37,600 bases of DNA from Prochlorococcus sp. AG-436-C05 (lineage in GTDB: Bacteria > Cyanobacteriota > Cyanobacteriia > PCC-6307 > Cyanobiaceae), in NCBI GenBank assembly GCA_003209795.1, contig QCPB01000012.1:1-37600 (forward strand). The letters run 5' to 3'. A model generated the notes under the pieces. The model searched no databases, had not been told where the DNA came from, and saw only the letters and a program-made list of their open reading frames with translations. The first letter of the stretch is position 1. Each line of letters starts with the position of its first letter. Shown in pieces: positions 9,964 through 32,624 of the stretch. Position numbers and translations under genes: made by a program.

Positions 9964-11100
9964 TTAGAAGCTAAATGATGTCTTAACAATTACACCTGTG
10001 TCATCATCTCCTGATTCTTCTTTTAAGTAAATCACAGGAGTGACGGTCATTGAATCATTTATTGGATATGAATAGAATGCCTCATACATTATGTATTCAG
10101 TTGCATTGTCATCAATATGCTCCGTTGTACCGAATGCAGCACCAAGTGTTCCATCACCAACCTCATCCCACTGGAATCCTACAAAGTAGTGTCTTGAATC
10201 AGTATTACTATCGTCAGGGTTACCTACTTCAAAACCAACACTGATTGAAGGGATAGCCCCTACATCTTCAGGTGTCCAGTATCCATTAAGACCCCAGTAA
10301 GCCGTGTCTGTAGATGAAGTGTTGTAATTTGCATAAGTTACAGAAGCTCCATACTGGTCAGCTTGGTAAGCTGCTTGTAAACCGAAAGTATCACTACCTT
10401 CTTTAGTTAGCAGACCACTAGAGGTATCTCCATTACCTTCGTAACCGAAACCAAGTGTGAATCCGTCACCATTATCATAACTAGCAGAAAGTGCAGTAGC
10501 TTGACCATTATCCATAGCTGAATTTGCATTACCGCAGTCATCTAATGTGTCAGTGATTCCACCGTATACACAAGCAGTATTGTAAAGAGAACTTCCTGCA
10601 ACATCATTACCAACCATAACGGTTAGCGAATCACCTAGAGGGAAAGTATAAGAAATACCATCAACAGCTAAAACATCATCAGTACCTGCATCGTTAAGGT
10701 CTAATTCAGTTAAGCCACCTCCACCGTTACCAGCGTCTATTGAAACATCAAAAGAATCATCACCTGTGAAACTAGTGTTTAAATCGATTTGGAAACCGTA
10801 AACACCTTGAACAGCGTCTTCAGATGTATCGCCATCTACTGAACCGATAGCAAAATCAGCTGAGAATGTTGCAGTTGTTGTTTCTGAGAAATCATCCCCA
10901 TAATCAACTAATCCTTCACCACCAGCAATTAAATTGGTTTCAGTTGATTCTTCAAGTTTAAATGAGTTAGCAAATTCTATACTATCTACATCAGAGTAGT
11001 TAGTAATATCATTGAGATTAATCTCAGTAGCATTTGCAGAAATAGGCGATAATAAACCTAATGCTGCTGGAGCTACCAACAAACGTTGGAAAAGCTTCAT
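9964..11100 (-). CDS. Outer-membrane porin (Som-like), copy 1
   Basis: The 378-residue protein has a signal peptide ending near ISANA (about residue 24), then acidic alternating strands typical of a beta-barrel and a C-terminal aromatic residue (VIVKTSFSF). It lacks the coiled-coil linker seen in the two other porins here. A block of about 190 nt is almost identical to the neighbour at 11257, including the FTGDDSFDVSIDAGNGGGG region. The ribosome-binding site is GTGTGAGGA. A Cys pair (TACVYGG, LDDCGN) probably forms a loop disulfide. Confidence 0.85.
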   Translation of the reverse strand: MKLFQRLLVAPAALGLLSPISANATEINLNDITNYSDVDSIEFANSFKLEESTETNLIAGGEGLVDYGDDFSETTTATFSADFAIGSVDGDTSEDAVQGVYGFQIDLNTSFTGDDSFDVSIDAGNGGGGLTELDLNDAGTDDVLAVDGISYTFPLGDSLTVMVGNDVAGSSLYNTACVYGGITDTLDDCGNANSAMDNGQATALSASYDNGDGFTLGFGYEGNGDTSSGLLTKEGSDTFGLQAAYQADQYGASVTYANYNTSSTDTAYWGLNGYWTPEDVGAIPSISVGFEVGNPDDSNTDSRHYFVGFQWDEVGDGTLGAAFGTTEHIDDNATEYIMYEAFYSYPINDSMTVTPVIYLKEESGDDDTGVIVKTSFSF

Positions 11101-11194
11101 GAAAAATTGTCCTCACACAAAAAAGGTATCTTAAATATATAGTAAAAATTTGATTTGAACAAGTTACAGTAGACAAAATATTAGCTGTCTAAAA

Positions 11195-11256: not shown

Positions 11257-12426
11257 TTAGAAGCTAAATGATGTCTTAACCATTACACCTGTTTGATCAT
11301 CTCCTGATGTTTCCTTTACGTAAATTACAGGAGTGACAGTCATTCCATCATTTATAGGATATGAATAGAATGCCTCATACATTAAGTATTCAGTTGCATT
11401 GTCAGCAGTATGCTCTGTTGTACCGACTGCAGCACCAAGTGTTCCATCGCCAACTTCATCCCATTGGAATCCTAAGAACCAATGTGTTGTATCAGTAGTA
11501 CTATCGCTAGGGTTACCTACTTCATAACCAACACTGATTGAAGGGATAGCACCTACATCTTCAGGTGTCCAGTATGCATTAAGACCCCAGTAAACATCGT
11601 CTACAGTTGAATCCTCTTCTTCAGTTGCATAAGTTAGAGAAGCGCCATACTGACCATCTTCGTCTTCATAACTTACTTGTAAACCGTAATAATCAAGACC
11701 TTCTTTAGTCATTAGACCACTAGAGGTATCTCCATTACCTTGATAACCGAAAGCAGCTGTAAATCCGTCACCAAAGTCATAACTAGCAGAAAAAGCAGTA
11801 GCTTGACCACTATCCATAGCTGACTTTGCATTACCGCAGTCATCTAATGTGTTAGTGATTCCACCGTATACACAAGCAGTATTGTAAAGACCACTTCCTT
11901 CAACGTCGTTACCAACCATAAGGGTTAGGTTGTCGCCAACAGGGAAAGTATAAGAAATACCATCAACGACTAAAACATCGTCATTTGTAGTAGCATCAGT
12001 ATCTGCATCGTTAAGGTCTAATTCAGTTAAGCCACCTCCACCGTTACCAGCGTCTATTGAAACATCAAAAGAATCATCACCTGTGAAACTAGTGTTTAAA
12101 TCGATTTGGAAACCGTAAACACCTTGAACAGCGTCTTCAGATGTATCGCCATCTACTGCACCGATAGCAAAGTCAGCTGAGAATGTTGCAGTTGTTGTTT
12201 CTGAAAAAGAACCAGCTTCAAAATTGTTAATTCTGGCTTCTAAACCATCTACACGGCTGTTAGTAACAGCAAGTTCTGTAGAATTAAATTCGCTAATGTT
12301 CTGAACTTCTTCTGATGAAGAATAGCCAGATACTTCAGCAAGGTTAAGCTCATTAGCTGATACTGACATTGGCGCAAGAAGGCCTAATGTCGCAGGAGCT
12401 ACAAGCAAGCTCTTAAAAAGCTTCAT
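11257..12426 (-). CDS. Outer-membrane porin (Som-like), copy 2
   Basis: Starting at ATG 12426, which has a good GTGTGAGGA site, the protein is 389 residues. It has a signal peptide (MKLFKSLLVAPATLGLLAP), an N-terminal ELNLAEVSGYSSSEEV segment, a short coiled-coil TNSRVDGLEARINNFEAG that probably trimerises or anchors, then the barrel ending in KTSFSF. A longer reading frame to 12456 lacks a ribosome-binding site. It is a tandem duplicate of copy 1, and its N-terminal part is closer to the third porin at 21266. Confidence 0.87.
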   Translation of the reverse strand: MKLFKSLLVAPATLGLLAPMSVSANELNLAEVSGYSSSEEVQNISEFNSTELAVTNSRVDGLEARINNFEAGSFSETTTATFSADFAIGAVDGDTSEDAVQGVYGFQIDLNTSFTGDDSFDVSIDAGNGGGGLTELDLNDADTDATTNDDVLVVDGISYTFPVGDNLTLMVGNDVEGSGLYNTACVYGGITNTLDDCGNAKSAMDSGQATAFSASYDFGDGFTAAFGYQGNGDTSSGLMTKEGLDYYGLQVSYEDEDGQYGASLTYATEEEDSTVDDVYWGLNAYWTPEDVGAIPSISVGYEVGNPSDSTTDTTHWFLGFQWDEVGDGTLGAAVGTTEHTADNATEYLMYEAFYSYPINDGMTVTPVIYVKETSGDDQTGVMVKTSFSF

Positions 12427-12632
12427 AAATTTCCTCACACGAAATTTAAAGGACACTTTATATTAAGGTACTTCTATATACGAAATCAAGTATCAATTGC
12501 TACTGTTTAAATTGTTATGTGCCAGTTTATTAATCTATCCAATAGAAATAAATTTCTTAAAAATGGTTAATTAAGGGGTAAAAATCAATAAAATTTATTA
12601 GTAATTTATGATTTTAAAATTATTTAATAAAC

Positions 12633-15582: not shown

Positions 15583-15675
15583 AAGCACAAACCTTACTAT
15601 TAATTTAAAAAATAATTTTTCTTTAACTTTACTTAACCATAGGTGAATATTATTTATTAAATAGAAATTGTGGGG

Positions 15676-16338: not shown

Positions 16339-17361
16339 ATGAAAATTGGAATTAATGGTTTTGGAAGAATTGGCAGATTAGTTTTCAGAGCATTATGGGA
16401 TAGATCTGATATAGAAATAACTCATATAAATGAGATAGCAGGAGATTCGAATGCTGCTGCACATCTACTCGAATTTGATTCAGTCCATGGTAGATGGTTG
16501 AAAGATATAAAGGTTAAAGGAAAAGAAATAATAATTGATGGAAAGAAATTAGCTTACACCTCTTTTAAAAATTACCTTGATGTTCCTTGGGAAAAATCTT
16601 CTGTAGATATTATTTTGGAATGTACAGGAAACAATAAAAAGCCAGACAAACTAAATCCCTACTTTGATTCTCTAGGGATGAAAAGAGTAATAGTAGCTTG
16701 TCCAGTAAAGGGAATTGTTGCAGAAGCTGAATCACTTAATGTTGTTTATGGCATAAATCAAAGTCTTTATGACCCTTCCAAACATAAATTAGTAACTGCA
16801 GCATCCTGCACTACAAATTGTTTAGCTCCGATAGTAAAGGTAATTAATGAAAATTTTTCAATTAAACACGGTGCTATTACAACTATTCACGATGTCACGA
16901 ACACTCAAGTTCCTGTAGATTTTTATAAAAGTGATTTAAGGAGAGCAAGGGGATGTATGCAAAGTTTAATACCGACTACCACTGGATCTGCTAAAGCTAT
17001 CGCTGAGATCTTTCCAGAATTAAAAGGAAAATTAAATGGACATGCAGTGAGAGTTCCTCTACTTAATGGTTCTTTAACTGATGCAGTTTTTGAATTAAAT
17101 AAAGAAGTGACAACTGAACAAGTAAATTTGGCACTTAAGGAAGCTTCAGAAACTTATTTAAAAGGAATTCTTGGCTACGAGGAAAGACCTTTAGTTTCTG
17201 CAGATTATGTAAATGACTCTAGAAGTTCAATAGTTGATAGTTTATCGACGATGGTTGTTAATTCAAATTTATTAAAGATATACGCTTGGTATGACAACGA
17301 GTGGGGTTACAGCTGCAGACTTGCAGATCTAACTGAATATGTAATCAACAAAGAGATTTAA
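16339..17361 (+). CDS. gap: Glyceraldehyde-3-phosphate dehydrogenase in an arsenate-efflux operon
   Basis: The 340-residue enzyme has the NAD site INGFGRIGR at the start and the catalytic ASCTTNC (Cys157). In ars operons with arsJ, such a GAPDH uses arsenate in place of phosphate to make 1-arseno-3-phosphoglycerate, which ArsJ exports. The 12-bp gap to arsJ and the ArsR operator in front support that role rather than central carbon flow, which the organism's other gap gene would serve. Confidence 0.9.
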
Positions 17362-17372
17362 TTTATGTCTTT

Positions 17373-18632
17373 ATGAAGTTATCTAATATTCAACAATATA
17401 GTGTTGTAACAGCAAACTATTGGGCGTTCACGCTTACTGACGGCGCATTAAGATTATTAGTTGTTGGTCACTTTCATGAGCTAGGTTACACAACTCTACA
17501 AATTGCTTTACTTTTCCTTTTTTATGAGTTTTTTGGAATAATTACTAATCTTTATGGTGGTTGGATAGGAGCAAGATATGGTTTAAGGCTTACTTTATGG
17601 ATTGGGACTATCCTGCAAATCATCGCTCTTTTTATGCTTATTCCAGTTAAGGAAGATTGGCCAGTAATTTTTAGTGTGGCATACGTTATGGTTGCTCAAG
17701 CAGTTAGCGGGATAGCAAAAGATTTAAACAAAATGAGTGCTAAAAGTGCTGTTAAGACAGTAGTTCCAGAGACAAATGATGGCAATGATACTGGCCAAAA
17801 ACAACTTTTTAAATGGGTTGCTATTTTAACTGGATCTAAAAATGCTCTTAAGGGAGTTGGCTTTTTCTTGGGTGGACTTTTATATAAGTTATTTGGATTC
17901 AATAATGCTGTAGGAATTATGGGTTTTGGACTCTGCTTAGCCTTTTTATTGACATTAATTTTGCCTGGAGAAATTGGCAAGATGAAAACCAAACCAGCTT
18001 TTAATGATCTTTTTTCAAAATCAAATGCAATAAATATTCTTTCAGCAGCAAGATTCTTTCTTTTTGGAGCAAGAGATGTTTGGTTTGTTGTAGCTCTCCC
18101 AGTATTCCTAGATATGGCATTTGGTTGGGACTACATGGAAATAGGATTATTTCTTGGGGCCTGGGTAATAGGTTATGGAATTGTTCAGGCTTCGGCTCCA
18201 GCAATTAGAAAGATGTGGGGCCAGAAAGAAAGTCCAGATCGTAAAGCTATCCAATTTTGGAGTGCCGTATTAATGGTCATACCATCTTTGATAGGAGTCG
18301 CATTATGGAGAGAAAGTTCTCCATCGATAGCAATAATTTTAGGACTTACTATTTTTGGATTTGTTTTTGCAATGAATTCCTCTACACATTCTTATATGAT
18401 TTTGGCCTACTCTGATAATGAAAAAGTCAGCTTAAATGTTGGCTTCTATTACATGGCAAATGCTGCTGGAAGACTAGTTGGAACATTACTATCTGGCTTA
18501 CTATTTATGATTGGGAGAAATCCAAGTATTGGTCTTCAATATTGTCTTTATTTTTCATCACTTCTAATATTATTATCTTGGATTTCGAGTCTTAAATTAC
18601 CATCAATCAAACAAAGCTTATCATCACCATAA
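17373..18632 (+). CDS. arsJ: ArsJ-type major facilitator, organoarsenical exporter
   Basis: The 419-residue protein has about 11-12 membrane helices and the N-terminal pattern YWAFTLTDGALRLLVVGHFH typical of ArsJ. Family knowledge: ArsJ exports 1-arseno-3-phosphoglycerate, which then falls apart outside. A cytosolic loop lies around residues 120-150. It follows the GAPDH gene by 12 bp, the usual gene pairing. Confidence 0.88.
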   Translation: MKLSNIQQYSVVTANYWAFTLTDGALRLLVVGHFHELGYTTLQIALLFLFYEFFGIITNLYGGWIGARYGLRLTLWIGTILQIIALFMLIPVKEDWPVIFSVAYVMVAQAVSGIAKDLNKMSAKSAVKTVVPETNDGNDTGQKQLFKWVAILTGSKNALKGVGFFLGGLLYKLFGFNNAVGIMGFGLCLAFLLTLILPGEIGKMKTKPAFNDLFSKSNAINILSAARFFLFGARDVWFVVALPVFLDMAFGWDYMEIGLFLGAWVIGYGIVQASAPAIRKMWGQKESPDRKAIQFWSAVLMVIPSLIGVALWRESSPSIAIILGLTIFGFVFAMNSSTHSYMILAYSDNEKVSLNVGFYYMANAAGRLVGTLLSGLLFMIGRNPSIGLQYCLYFSSLLILLSWISSLKLPSIKQSLSSP

Positions 18633-18662
18633 AAGCTAATTTTTAGAAATTAGAATATTTAG

Positions 18663-19889
18663 ATGGCAAAAATATCCTTAATTGAACTTGCAAAAATTTT
18701 TCTAAAAATTGGTATTTTCAGCTTTGGAGGACCATATGCTCATATTTCTTTATTCGAAGATGAACTTATAAATAATAAAAAATTGATCTCAACCCAATCT
18801 TTTGAAAAAGGTATTGGTTTATGTCAATTGCTTCCAGGGCCAATATCCACTCAATTAGCAATATATATAGGTCTTAAAATTAATGGTTATCTTGGTGGAT
18901 TGATATCCGGTACATGTTTCATTATCCCAGGATTCATTTCGGTATTAGTTCTTAGCTTTTTTTGGCAAATTTATTCTGGATCAAAATTTCTAAGTGATTT
19001 AATTTATTTTAATCCTCCTATTATTGCAGGAATAATTTTTTCATTTTCATTAGTTCTATTAAAAAAAAGATTAAAGTTAGATCGAGTATTATTCTCTAGC
19101 TCAATCTTATTTCTACTTATATTTGCCAAATATAATAGTATTCAATTTCCTCTAATAACAATTCTTACTATTGCAGGTTTGATAAATATTTTCTTACAGA
19201 AATGGAAAAATATTTTTTATAGTTTTGTTCCTTTATCTATATTTTCAACAACCTCATTTTTAACTAGCTCAATCTTTTTGGATATTGCCAAGTTTTATAA
19301 TTTTTTTAAGGACTCTACAAACTCAAAGTTTTTAATAGATTATCTTAATCTATTTTTTTTCTTTTTCAAATCAGGACTTTTTATTTTTGGAGGTGGATTA
19401 GTAATCATTCCCCTAATGAGTGATTATGTTGTCTCACAAGGATGGTTAACAAATAATGAATTTATAGATGGGATAATGATTGGCCAAATAACACCTGGTC
19501 CTGTCTTATTAACTACAAGTTTTATTGGATACAAAGCTGGGTTTTCGATCGGAGGAATAAATGGAGCTTTAAAGTATTCATTTATATCAACTTTTGCAAT
19601 TTTTTTACCAAGTTTTTTATTGATTTTTGTTTTTGGAAAAGGCTTCATAAAAAACAGAATTAAATCGATTAATTACTTTATCGAAGGAGTAATCAATACA
19701 ATTCCAGGAGCAGTTATTTTCTCTGGCTTTAATTTAATTGAAGATAGTTATTCATCAAAATTCTTTTTAATTAGCTCTATTTTTATAGTTTTAATCTCCA
19801 CACTATTATCTTTTTTTAAAATAGTTCCAACCTACATACTTATTCTTTTTTCTTTAATATTAGGTTTATCAAAATATTTGTTCGCATAA
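18663..19889 (+). CDS. chrA: Chromate transporter family protein ChrA
   Basis: The 408-residue membrane protein has two CHR half-repeats: an N-terminal one with [18 protein letters not shown] and LPGPIST, and a C-terminal one with [15 protein letters not shown] and [10 protein letters not shown]. The FGG and (L/T)PGP motifs of both halves are present. ChrA proteins move chromate or related oxyanions; in an As/P island the real substrate is uncertain. It lies 30 bp after arsJ and may belong to the same transcript. Confidence 0.9.
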
Positions 19890-21173: not shown

Positions 21174-21265
21174 TTCTATTTCCTTATGATCCTTATTCAT
21201 TTCTTAACCTACAACCGTTGAAATGAATATTGGATATTAATCCATTATTTAACGTGTTGAGGAAC

Positions 21266-22518: not shown

Positions 22519-23673
22519 TCAAGATTCTACCGTCAATGGGAAGATAACTTCTATAATTGCTCCACCATCCTTATGATTAAAAGCCTTTATAAAACCTTTA
22601 TTGTTATTGATTATTTTTTTTGTTATTGAAAGACCTAAACCACTACCACTTTTCTTGAATTTAGTCCTTGATGGATCACCTCTATAAAAACGAGAAAAAA
22701 TATCATTAAATTCATTTTCTTCTAATCCAATACCTTTATCTCTAACTCTCATAACAACCGAGCTATCTCTTTTAAAAATTTCAATTTGAATTTCTTCATT
22801 AGCTGGGGAATAACGAATAGCATTATCCAAAATATTTATAAAAGCTCTTTTTAAATTTTCAATATCCGCAGATATAAAATATTTTGTTGGTATCAGTAGA
22901 TTTATTTTTATATCTTTTTTTTCTGCAAGTGGTTTTAAGGTTTGCCAAGATTCCATCACTAAATCTGAAATAGATATTTTTTTATTTTTATTAAAAGCCT
23001 CGCTACTTTCTAGCTTAGAAAGTTCTAAAGTTTCTTCGACCATTTTTCTTAATCTTTTAGATTCTTTCTTAAGTCTTTTAACGAGATATCTATCTTTCTT
23101 TGATACTACTGATTCCAGTCTTTCGCCTATCAAAATAAGAGATGTAAGAGGTGTTTTCAGTTCATGAGACACATCATTGATTAATTGATTCTGTCTTTTT
23201 TTTATGGATTCAATTGATAATTTACTCTCCAACAATATTAAATAATTTTTTTTCCTTGCTCTAACAATATTTACAGAAATGGGTTCCCCCGAAATAGTGC
23301 AATCTAGGCTGATTGGGAAATCTTTTTTTCTTGAATATAAAATCTTATTTCTTAGTACTTCGAGCTCATTAATATCATTAATTGCTTTTCCAATAACATC
23401 TTTATATTTAATAAACTTAATGAGAGATAAACCTTTCTGATTGATAAATTTTATTGTTAGATCAGATGACAAAATCATCCATCCTTGAGATGAATAATCT
23501 AACCAAGATAAAAGTTGCTGTGGTTTAACTTTATCAAATGGAAAATCAAAAATTTGTTGGTTCTTATTTTTAGTTAATTCAATATTTTTATTATTTTTTG
23601 AAAGTCCTTTAACCTTGGTTTTCCATTTCTCATAAAAGAAAGTTAATACCTCTTGTAGCGTTTTCATTTTCAT
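22519..23673 (-). CDS. phoR: Phosphate sensor histidine kinase PhoR
   Basis: The 384-residue kinase has a PAS-like region (about 54-100), a HisKA box NDVSHELKTP with the phosphorylated His170, an N box NILDNAIRYSP, and GIGLEE/GSGLGLS ATP-lid motifs. No membrane helix is visible, as in other picocyanobacterial PhoR. Its ATG overlaps the phoB stop (ATGA), so the two are translationally coupled. Expected role: phosphorylates PhoB under low phosphate. Confidence 0.92.
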   Translation of the reverse strand: MKMKTLQEVLTFFYEKWKTKVKGLSKNNKNIELTKNKNQQIFDFPFDKVKPQQLLSWLDYSSQGWMILSSDLTIKFINQKGLSLIKFIKYKDVIGKAINDINELEVLRNKILYSRKKDFPISLDCTISGEPISVNIVRARKKNYLILLESKLSIESIKKRQNQLINDVSHELKTPLTSLILIGERLESVVSKKDRYLVKRLKKESKRLRKMVEETLELSKLESSEAFNKNKKISISDLVMESWQTLKPLAEKKDIKINLLIPTKYFISADIENLKRAFINILDNAIRYSPANEEIQIEIFKRDSSVVMRVRDKGIGLEENEFNDIFSRFYRGDPSRTKFKKSGSGLGLSITKKIINNNKGFIKAFNHKDGGAIIEVIFPLTVES

Positions 23674-24413
23674 CCAAACTTATATCCAAAGCCTCTAACA
23701 GTTTTAAGAAACTTTGGAGCTGAGGGATCTTCTTCTAATTTCTCTCTGAGCCACCTAACATGAACATCTACAGTTTTAGTTTCACCGATAAAGTCAATTT
23801 CCCATATTTTTTCAAGTATTAAATCTCTTGACCATACCCTTTTAGGATTTTTCATAAATAATTCTAATAATTTAAATTCTTTTGGAGATAATGTTATTTC
23901 TCTATCGAAAGAAGTTACCCTACATTCTTCCAAAAACATTTTTATATGGTTAAACTCTATGACGGTTTTTGAGTTTTCTATATTTTTTTTATTACGTTTA
24001 GATCTTCTTATTAAGGCTCTTGATCTAGCAATTAATTCATTTAAACCAAAAGGTTTTGTTAAATAATCATCTGCACCAACCTCTAAACCAAGAACCCTGT
24101 CTGATTCATTATCTTTAGCACTCAAAATTAGTATGGGTGTATAGTTTTCTTCATTTCTTATTTTTCTGCATAACTCTAATCCATTTAACCCTGGCAACAT
24201 TAAATCGAGAATTATTAGGTCAACATCATTTTTAGAATCATTAGTAATAAAATCTAATGCAGTTAAACCATCTTTGAAACTTAATACTCTAAAACCTTCG
24301 CTATTCAATGTCTCACTTACTGTCAACCTAATACTCTTGTCATCCTCTACAAGAAGAATTTTTGAGTCTTGCAAACTTTTATGATCTTTAATAGCCATTT
24401 GAAAACCCAACAA
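23670..24413 (-). CDS. phoB: Phosphate response regulator PhoB
   Basis: The 247-residue protein has a full receiver: D24-D25 pair, phosphorylated D70 (LIILDLMLPGLNG) and K120 (TKPFGL). Its C-terminal OmpR-type winged helix includes LSPKEFKLLELF and VDVHVRWLREKL. It should bind the PHO boxes at 21.0-21.2 kb. An inner ATG five codons in is a possible start. Confidence 0.93.
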   Translation of the reverse strand: MLGFQMAIKDHKSLQDSKILLVEDDKSIRLTVSETLNSEGFRVLSFKDGLTALDFITNDSKNDVDLIILDLMLPGLNGLELCRKIRNEENYTPILILSAKDNESDRVLGLEVGADDYLTKPFGLNELIARSRALIRRSKRNKKNIENSKTVIEFNHIKMFLEECRVTSFDREITLSPKEFKLLELFMKNPKRVWSRDLILEKIWEIDFIGETKTVDVHVRWLREKLEEDPSAPKFLKTVRGFGYKFG

Positions 24414-24543
24414 ATTAATTTTATATAATCAAATTTATTTGATGTAATTATTTCACATTTACTTTACATTCAATGCTTATTTTTTTATTCGATCTTATTA
24501 GCTTTTTAATTTTTCCTTAAACCTGTTTATTTAATATAAAAAT

Positions 24544-24582
24544 GCTTCTTTAATTTTCCTCACACAAACATATTAAAGAAGC
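24544..24582 (+). ncRNA. Hairpin with porin anti-Shine-Dalgarno loop, or a decayed porin 5' end
   Basis: gcttctttaat (24544-24554) and attaaagaagc (24572-24582) form a perfect 11-bp stem around a 17-nt loop. On the plus strand the loop contains tcctcacacaaa, fully complementary to the ribosome-binding region of the porin at 9964 and largely to that at 11257. Read on the minus strand it resembles the leader and first codons of those porins with the ATG changed, so it may be a relic. No T run follows. Confidence 0.35.
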
Positions 24583-24702
24583 AAACTTATTTACTTTTAA
24601 GGAAGATCATGTAATTTAATATCCCATCTAAGCGTAAAAATAATCGTCATCTTCATATATAGTTGTCAACAAATATCATTTGCATGACTTATTCAAAATA
24701 AA

Positions 24703-25980
24703 TTAGTTTTTTATTAACTTCTTATCAGTATTATTTAATTTGTCGACTATAGGATCAAATGCATTCTCTAAATCTTTTGTATTAAATCTTGAATAACTTT
24801 TTAAATGAGTTTCAAGATCATGTCCCATTGCATCTGCTATTTGTTTTGGTGATCTATAAGTTCCATTTTTATTGATCCTATTATGAGCAACATAGGCGTA
24901 TCTATGCCGGAAAGAATAAGGTGTGCATTCTTGCCCCTCAACTTCAGCTTCCTTGCAAATTGACAACCAAATATTCTTAGGACTTCTATCTCTTAACTGT
25001 TTCCCTAACCTATCTGCGCCTTGTCCTTTCGATATTTGAGGAAGAAGTTCTCCAGCAGCAAACCTTTGCTGCAAAGTAAGGCACCATTCAAAAGGATTTC
25101 CATCTATATCCAAAACAAATAAAGGAAATAATCTTCTTCCATTTATCTTTGAATTCGATTTTTTATAAGTAGTCCAAAGTTCTGTTTTATTATTTTTTAG
25201 AACTAAATATCTAAGTTCTTCAGGCCTTAATCCATAAACTGCACAAAGCTGAGTTGCGAATTGCCATTTTGCTGCATGCTCATTATCTGCAAATGAATCA
25301 ACCAATCTTCCAATTTGGGAATCTGTTAATGGATAACCCACTCTCTTTTCTGTAGTTACTTCTTCTTCAGCTTTATTAAAAACTGGAGGTCTCCAATAGG
25401 ATGGAAAGTCTTCTCTTTCTACGCACCAATTTAAGAATCTATTAAAAGCTAATCTCATATGTCTTCGCATGGTTGTGCCTTTAGCCCAACCTCTTTTTTC
25501 TAAATTTTTACCATGTTGATATTCATTACTGACTTTATTCCATAATCTTTTACCATTTTGAGGTCTTGCCTTTGATCTCTTTACGTAAAAGAAAATTGCT
25601 TTAATTACAGGAAGATGCTTCCTTTTCCAGGTATTTTCTTGAATAGTGTGTCTATTAGAATTTCTATAATTTTCGAGAGCCATATCCCATTCCAGCTCAA
25701 ATTTAGTAGATGATTTCTGTGAAATGTCAAAAGCAGCCTTTAAAGAAATATTGGATTTATAGTTTTCATAAGTATCAGCAGCAGTTTCTATCAGCTTCAA
25801 AGCCTCAACCCATTGATCTTCCTGCCATTTGTAAGGAAGGTTTATTGATAAAAAACCTGATGCTTTTTTTCCATATAAAACACGAATATTTCCTCTATCA
25901 GGTTGAACAGTCCAACCAGTTCCAACAGAGACTTTAATTGCTCTTCTAAATACTTTTATCCAAGAGTTAGTTTCTGCCAC
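24703..25980 (-). CDS. int: Tyrosine recombinase (integrase) of a tRNA-Pro-targeting element
   Basis: The 425-residue protein has a core-binding domain (about 105-205) and a catalytic domain with Arg252 (YGLRPEELRYL), a basic beta region near 273, Arg358 in CTPYSFRHRYA (Tyr at the usual first-His position), His387 (MGHDLE) and nucleophile Tyr396. The N-terminal 100 residues probably bind arm-type DNA. The start is GTG 25980. The gene points into the unit, and its start is 148 bp from att copy 2, as in integrative elements. Confidence 0.9.
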   Translation of the reverse strand: MAETNSWIKVFRRAIKVSVGTGWTVQPDRGNIRVLYGKKASGFLSINLPYKWQEDQWVEALKLIETAADTYENYKSNISLKAAFDISQKSSTKFELEWDMALENYRNSNRHTIQENTWKRKHLPVIKAIFFYVKRSKARPQNGKRLWNKVSNEYQHGKNLEKRGWAKGTTMRRHMRLAFNRFLNWCVEREDFPSYWRPPVFNKAEEEVTTEKRVGYPLTDSQIGRLVDSFADNEHAAKWQFATQLCAVYGLRPEELRYLVLKNNKTELWTTYKKSNSKINGRRLFPLFVLDIDGNPFEWCLTLQQRFAAGELLPQISKGQGADRLGKQLRDRSPKNIWLSICKEAEVEGQECTPYSFRHRYAYVAHNRINKNGTYRSPKQIADAMGHDLETHLKSYSRFNTKDLENAFDPIVDKLNNTDKKLIKN

Positions 25981-32404: not shown

Positions 32405-32444
32405 TAAAAAAGAGATTGACTCCATTCCTAAAATCAATCTCTTT
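32405..32444 (-). terminator. Minus-strand terminator
   Basis: aaagagattga (32409-32419) and tcaatctcttt (32434-32444) form a perfect 11-bp stem; an A run on the left gives a T run on the minus strand. Confidence 0.7.
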
Positions 32445-32624
32445 AACTTATTCAATTGCTAGTAATTTTTTCTAATAGGTTGGCTGCTTATACCAATCTT
32501 GTTAATTTCTCTGGTGGACTATCAATCATTTCTGATCCCTCCATTCGGTTAATAAAATAATAGTCAATCTAATTTATGTTGCATATCAGTAGTTATGCTG
32601 ATTTTTTATGGACTTTACTAATAG

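Follow-up and report, generated by a model that had tools for sequence, protein, structure and literature searches.

The window, by which we mean the whole stretch of 37,600 nt of Prochlorococcus DNA that was analysed, carries on its minus strand a phoB-like response regulator gene and a phoR-like histidine kinase gene (Table 1). The phoB-like protein had NCBIfam TIGR02154 PhoB as its best match, its 214.9 bits lying under the cut-off of 296.2. Upstream of this gene the plus strand reads GCTTCTTTAAT-TTTCCTCACACAAACAT-ATTAAAGAAGC and forms a hairpin, the arms of which (24544-24554 and 24572-24582) pair over 11 bp with no mismatch, or over 12 bp counting T24543-A24583. Sequence and fold bore out the perfect 11-bp stem and 17-nt loop described in the initial annotation, and the distance of 130 bp given there between hairpin and phoB is right for the listed TTG start, the likely ATG lying 145 bp away. 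Unnoticed at that stage, as were the ordinary Yfr1 and Yfr10 of this genome, was that the loop holds at 24557-24565 the core UCCUCACAC of the cyanobacterial Yfr1/Yfr10 sRNA motif. Directly beyond the hairpin (24588-25980 of the window) are the remnant of a small ORF and a phage-type integrase gene. As the matching sequence in relatives often ends at about 24588, the hairpin marks a recombination boundary. An outer pairing of approximately 24511-24521 with 24606-24616, seen in a 201-nt fold, was missing in most of the relatives shown and was taken as chance, and Rfam matches to SpR14 and mir-1 were discarded as far under the gathering scores.

Table 1. Coordinates of the hairpin, its neighbours and its predicted partners in the window.
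Feature	Position	Strand	Basis
Candidate sRNA hairpin, 11-bp stem and 17-nt loop	24544..24582	+	Sequence, fold, paired changes in relatives
Loop motif UUCCUCACACA	24556..24566	+	Near-invariant in alignment A1; pairs with porin sites
Putative two-repeat Pho box TTTAATTT-ttc-CTTAAACC, facing the hairpin	24505..24523	+	Matrix rank 5 of 75,162; strongly conserved
Candidate -10 element TATAAA (inference)	24535..24540	+	11 bp past the Pho box
phoB-like response regulator, likely ATG 24398 (listed TTG 24413)	23670..24398	-	Pfam Response_reg, Trans_reg_C
phoR-like histidine kinase	22519..23673	-	Pfam HisKA, HATPase_c; NCBIfam PnpS/PhoR best, below cut-offs
One-extra-base site GTGTTGAGG before the Pho-cluster porin (start 21266)	21254..21262	+	Sequence, pairing energies, relatives
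Predicted target site, general porin mRNA (start 11100), 12 nt	11110..11121	-	Pairing energies; weak porin_somb family match
Predicted target site, second general porin mRNA (start 12426), 11 nt	12430..12440	-	Pairing energies; weak porin_somb match

Loci for comparison were taken from the phoB regions on 80 named contigs and from further stretches of the genus, using a sequence anchor that is blind to G-U versus A-C. The anchor search yielded 161 loci with 32 distinct hairpins and 66 distinct fragments of 84-88 nt; some genomes entered the 161 loci twice, along different routes, and all counts use only the 66 distinct fragments. The anchor missed L075 and L171, in which the hairpin is present, and L182, which has part of it. 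Two main stem types were found, GCTTCTTTAA/TTAAAGAAGC and GTCTCTTTAA/TTAAAGAGAC, and in L069/L125 a T-A pair is exchanged for A-T. In the alignment of the 66 fragments (A1), 99.5% of the 660 cells were paired, three of the ten pairs changed on both sides, and RNAalifold predicted the same ten pairs. The covariation score was 0.226 against 0.128 in shuffles, with none of 500 shuffles as high and slid controls at 0.011-0.063; two other measures were less telling, as the number of pairs with change on either side of the stem together was reached in 24 of 500 shuffles and the number of further pair types in all 500. The check on covariation that the initial annotation had proposed showed that paired substitutions keep the stem in relatives. 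The stem type changed seven times on a tree of 70 phoB sequences, at least four of these changes being forced by well-supported branches; whole-hairpin exchange by recombination may account for some of them.

The strand was indicated by the wobble cells, all 13 of which are G-U on the plus strand and none A-C, three further cells being other mismatches; by eye these wobbles represent about eight independent events. Such one-sidedness identifies the plus-strand RNA as the conserved entity. The loop UUCCUCACACA was near-invariant, with departures from the core in L019, L045, L074, L154, L161, L176 and L180. The structure is conserved as RNA, as looked for in a base-pairing sRNA, and this conservation in relatives is the strongest support for the observation; judged from the aligned sequences, the plus strand very probably encodes a conserved hairpin RNA that carries the Yfr1 core. 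One strict hairpin pattern was also run against cyanophages and gave no match in viral_contigs.

The source genome (1.136 Mb, 71.65% complete) contains an ordinary Yfr1 (RF01116, 44.9 bits) and an ordinary Yfr10 (RF02362, 57.7 bits), the latter adjoining a gene of the Cyano-1 type, which we take to be Yfr2; the hairpin is an extra element besides these two. Seven sites with TCCTCACAC occur in this genome, three of them in Yfr1, Yfr10 and the new hairpin, three complementary to the 5' regions of two porins and the inorganic pyrophosphatase, and one on the sense strand within a phosphoglycerate mutase gene. The window itself also has a Yfr11 (RF02363, 101.5 bits) at 32405-32550(-). The Yfr1 motif of cyanobacteria is given as ACUCCUCACAC (PMC2190773, PMC2518516). 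When MED4 Yfr1 was expressed in E. coli, a reporter with the 5'UTR of the porin PMM1121 was repressed 4.7-fold, and a pull-down supports PMM1119, PMM1121 and ppa as Yfr1 targets; in Yfr10 the motif is shown in a loop on a stem, the targets of Yfr1 and Yfr10 overlap, and Yfr10 increases in darkness (PMC6778093).

Like Yfr10 and Yfr18 (RF02362; Prochlorococcus), the hairpin carries the Yfr1 core in the loop of a stem-loop; in the source genome's own Yfr10 a 9-bp stem surrounds CTCCTCACACACTT. Unlike them, it has its own stem and position and UU in place of AC before UCCUCACAC, so that it reads UUUCCUCACAC and shares 9 of the 11 letters of the full undecamer. A terminator scan of 24400-24720 found no terminator-like site and hence no 3' terminator hairpin for the candidate sRNA, in which it differs from Yfr10; as only 11 significant terminators are reported among 337 3'UTRs of MED4, canonical ones being rare (PMC3898218), this means little. 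The RF02362 model gave no match at E<=10 on 24400-24710, nor at E<=1 on L007 and L181, and whereas high-light Yfr10 sits upstream of a Yfr2 homologue, the window has no Rfam match of the Yfr2 type. As the hairpin neither matches the model nor has the full undecamer, a terminator or a Yfr2 neighbour, it falls outside RF02362 as defined, although by its sequence it would work like Yfr10. With Yfr1 (RF01116) it shares the UCCUCACAC core and porin ribosome-binding sites as predicted partners, but in Yfr1 the motif is described as unpaired between two stem-loops (PMC2190773) instead of lying inside a hairpin loop, and the Rfam search gave no RF01116 match to the hairpin.

The 12-nt and approximately 11-nt pairings previously proposed between the loop and two porin ribosome-binding regions were confirmed in the sequence. 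Loop positions 24557-24568 (UCCUCACACAAA) pair over 12 nt with UUUGUGUGAGGA before the porin start at 11100(-), and UUUCCUCACAC pairs over 11 nt with GUGUGAGGAAA before the ATG at 12426(-), the listed ORF of this second general porin starting at an upstream GTG (12456). In the window TCCTCACAC occurs three times against 0.10 expected, a number reached in none of 100 shuffles. The two general porins were the best loop partners among 23 tested start regions of the window, with -19.0 and -18.1 kcal/mol, followed by the Pho-cluster porin at -13.5 and the next region at -9.4 kcal/mol, and no loop shuffle out of 2000 equalled the real pairing for either general porin. Predicted dimer gains of the hairpin were -11.4 and -8.3 with the general porins, -0.6 with the Pho-cluster porin, 0.0 with ppa and -5.5 with Yfr2; in the same order they were -12.4, -12.4, -8.7, -10.9 and -16.4 for Yfr1 and -9.3, -8.2, -4.8, -4.3 and -12.1 for Yfr10. 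Because of these gains the target range of the hairpin looks narrower than that of Yfr1, which is predicted to pair strongly with ppa and less selectively, as far as simple predicted energies can tell; in loop-only pairing the values for the Pho-cluster porin (-13.5) and ppa (-16.4) are weaker, yet not nil. The 5' region of the inorganic pyrophosphatase gene (ppa), a published Yfr1/Yfr10 target, carries GUGUGAGGA (L001, G000:C3:21707-21715), and it was the best partner of the Yfr1 loop (-20.8), the best partners of the new loop being porins (-19.0); these modelled values hint at a division of labour, with the Yfr1 loop for ppa and the new loop for porins. Pairing of a stem arm, GCUUC, with porin codons 2-3 is feasible in the GC stem type only and was not used.

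Between phoB and the hairpin lies a promoter block with a putative Pho box. In a scan with a matrix built from the boxes in Table 1 of PMC1906773, the site at 24505(+), TTTAATTTttcCTTAAACC, ranked fifth among the 75,162 positions of the two strands, and it kept this rank when the MIT9312 pstS box, which lies in the window, was left out of the matrix. Three of the four sites outranking it are in the pstS/Pho-porin intergenic region and the fourth is at 15621; the latter belongs to the window's second-best Pho box (15621-15639, +), about 700 bp before a gene row (16339-19889) of ArsJ-associated GAPDH, ArsJ and a chromate transporter. A repeat pair starting at 24516 was rejected as the Pho box for its poor score (rank 5167). 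The best Pho site was at the same offset in 61 of the 66 fragments, and it is oriented toward the hairpin and away from phoB, with 20 nt between box and stem. The consensus sigma-70 scan did not report the TATAAA at 24535-24540; with this candidate -10 element, transcription would start near the first stem bases.

The tandem 8-bp repeats with a 3-bp linker resemble those of the cyanobacterial Pho (SphR) regulon and of the window's own pstS, and the box stands in promoter position facing the unit, as far as sequence can tell. Unlike the SphR regulon members named in the literature consulted, which are protein genes, the hairpin would be an RNA. The sphS and sphR genes are themselves described as unlikely to be SphR-regulated in most genomes studied, including MED4 and MIT9312 (PMC1906773). 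On the position and conservation of the box, control of the hairpin RNA by PhoB appears likely.

R1, a covariance model covering the promoter block together with the hairpin, matched 100 of the 266 genomes of the genus, once per genome, the element being kept in high-light Prochlorococcus. In a family sample of 400 genomes from 59 genera it gave 33 matches, all in Prochlorococcus, under stricter filters that may have removed weak matches in other genera. The element was present in 97 of the 108 genomes with phoB (E<=1e-100) versus 3 of the 158 without it, leaving 11 genomes with phoB only and 155 with neither. In eight of these 11 only a few bases separate the phoB start from the end of its contig, and in the other three (G116, G186, G229) the promoter block is absent. 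Among the three genomes with the element only, phoB is gone beside pstS in G085, and block and hairpin are located elsewhere in G086 and G119; in G107 the phoB contig is without the block (L072, L228), which is found on another contig. The arrangements in G107, G086 and G119 indicate that block and hairpin stay together without phoB. At the 80 phoB loci, CCTCACAC was found within 420 nt upstream in 66, the remainder comprising two hairpins with a changed motif (L045, L074), four loci cut in the hairpin region (L088, L105, L109, L113), four with another hairpin (L042, L043, L044, L078) and four without the block (L066, L072, L079, L087). Simple linkage may account for part of the tie to phoB and may be all that lies behind co-loss with phoB.

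Six of the 100 matching genomes (G011, G085, G095, G115, G160, G227) have a different hairpin, GTCTCC...GGAGAC, in which the motif is lost. Replacement by this hairpin with another loop, the promoter block being kept, was seen in L042, L043, L044, L078, L183 and L186-L190, upstream of a former or present phoB; in the loci read further it is followed by a stretch resembling the 3' half of tRNA-Pro, and ARAGORN found no intact tRNA in the five such loci scanned; the arrangement resembles the border of a mobile element. In L175, L176 and L180, from three genomes, block and hairpin lie away from phoB and immediately before the ATG of a short predicted membrane peptide (MQTD...), and the hairpin there may be the leader of a tiny ORF.

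The MED4 genome (G033) has the element at 669212-669295(-) (E 1.2e-11), with phoB on one side and a TrkA-type channel gene on the other. Of its nine TCCTCACAC sites, 346670(+) is within the published coordinates of Yfr10 (346661..346738) and 972304(-) within those of Yfr18 (complement 972284..972388). Along with Yfr1, Yfr10 and Yfr18, the new element makes four such sites in an sRNA-like context. Transcription start sites of MED4 and MIT9313 have reportedly been mapped, and such data may show a start at the element. Table 1 of the MED4 ncRNA survey has no entry at 669212-669295(-), and its arrays gave no phosphorus-responsive ncRNA, a result the authors called 'very surprising' (PMC2518516); together, and to the extent of that table and the array results, these are the main evidence against expression. 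The 54-nt Yfr1 was possibly lost during cDNA clean-up according to the same authors (PMC2518516). Exact undecamers number three in MED4 by published counts (PMC2190773, PMC2518516), and exact searches for ACUCCUCACAC miss the new loop because it is without the 5' AC. In the open-licence literature, supplements excepted, on phosphate-linked sRNAs, on Pho boxes of Prochlorococcus and cyanobacteria or on the motif, the element was found unreported.

Computation showed that a hairpin with the Yfr1 core is conserved on the plus strand, that it is tied to phoB and that a site resembling a Pho box faces it. These features are best explained, with a probability of roughly 0.55, by a PhoB-driven, Yfr10-like sRNA that represses general porins. 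The plus strand, divergent from phoB, would encode a short regulatory RNA; phosphorylated PhoB would bind the box, and the transcript would begin at about the first stem bases. Its loop would pair with the ribosome-binding sites (GUGUGAGGA) of the general porin mRNAs and block translation while the phosphate genes are on, the Pho-cluster porin being largely spared by a site that usually has an extra base. Repression of the general porins taken by itself appears somewhat better than an even chance. Of the porin-repressing small RNA proposed initially, the plus strand, the porin pairing and the tie to phosphate genes stood, on the evidence of conservation, covariation, one-sided wobbles, the orientation of the Pho box and the Yfr1/Yfr10 precedent (PMC6778093), while transcription and repression are predictions. 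Against the explanation as a whole is that Yfr1 already covers porins.

The most serious alternative is a conserved sRNA with the Yfr1 motif but without PhoB control, a constitutive or light-driven copy of Yfr1/Yfr10 that acts on porins or Yfr2 and stands beside phoB by history. The overlapping targets of Yfr1 and Yfr10 and the rise of Yfr10 in darkness (PMC6778093) fit it, as do the want of a phosphorus-responsive ncRNA in the MED4 arrays (PMC2518516) and the predicted pairing of the loop with Yfr2 (-16.4 kcal/mol, dimer gain -5.5). It leaves the conserved Pho box that faces the hairpin unaccounted for, as well as the near absence of the element from phoB-less genomes, of which linkage is possibly part of the cause, and the gain with Yfr2 is weaker than those of Yfr1 (-16.4) and Yfr10 (-12.1); we regard it as unlikely. 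A functional minus strand, with the hairpin in the phoB leader and its loop GUGUGAGGA as a decoy or target for Yfr1/Yfr10, is improbable: in its favour are the minus-strand loop, complementary to the Yfr1 motif, and the place of the hairpin upstream of phoB on the phoB strand, but all 13 wobbles would be A-C on that strand, and block and hairpin persist away from phoB. About equally improbable is a transcription terminator or a DNA site for a protein, the motif being incidental. The minus strand of the window does run on as ATTTTTATATT past the stem, and hairpin-flanking sequence varies between lineages; set against this are the near-invariant loop and the one-sided wobbles, and a terminator in particular is disfavoured by the negative scan and by the GTCTC type, which is without a U-run after the stem on either strand. 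The decayed porin start on the minus strand that the initial annotation had offered as its alternative can be dismissed as highly improbable, for although GTGTGAGGAAAATTAAAGAAGCATTTTTA of the window's stem type resembles the porin-start GTGTGAGGAAATTTATGAAGCTTTTTA, paired changes keep the stem, the GTCTC type shows no such likeness outside the loop, and what lies beyond the hairpin is a small-ORF end and an integrase gene, with no porin remnant; a distant origin of the hairpin from an inverted porin start is conceivable.

The PhoB-driven sRNA also bears on the porins near phoB. A pattern search of the phoB loci on the 80 named contigs recognized 60 porin-type starts, 56 of which had extra bases in the site (53 with one, GTGTTGAG, and three with two); the four plain starts were in L056, L086, L087 and L114, L087 having one of each kind. 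A search for GTGTTGAGG-N2..9-ATGAARCT across the 266 genomes gave 88 matches, comprising 76 on phoB contigs, all 76 within 8 kb of phoB, four on other contigs and eight in genomes without a listed phoB. For the plain form (121 of 266 genomes; 72 matches typed, from G001 and the genomes with phoB), at least 21 of the 72 matches listed were on a phoB contig and none of those listed was within 8 kb of phoB, although plain forms near phoB do exist, as the four among the 60 starts show. PMM0709 and PMT9312_0721 are, we assume, porins of the Pho cluster. Table 2 of PMC1906773 names both in its list of genes that have putative SphR sites. That selection has favoured the sparing of the Pho-cluster porin is a tentative proposal, to which we would give somewhat less than even odds. 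Slightly more doubtful is the fuller picture of a porin switch in high-light Prochlorococcus, in which the PhoB-activated sRNA would silence general porins at GUGUGAGGA and the Pho-cluster porin would escape through the extra base (GUGUUGAGG).

If true, this would explain the extra base in the ribosome-binding region of porins near phoB, would connect the ultraconserved motif of Yfr1 with a stress regulator and would give PhoB a repressive arm. The element, present in MED4, is a direct candidate for the phosphorus-responsive ncRNA missing from the survey described in PMC2518516. Through such a porin switch, phosphate status would reshape the outer membrane of high-light Prochlorococcus, and phosphate-short cells of a very common ocean bacterium might change the outer-membrane pores they make.
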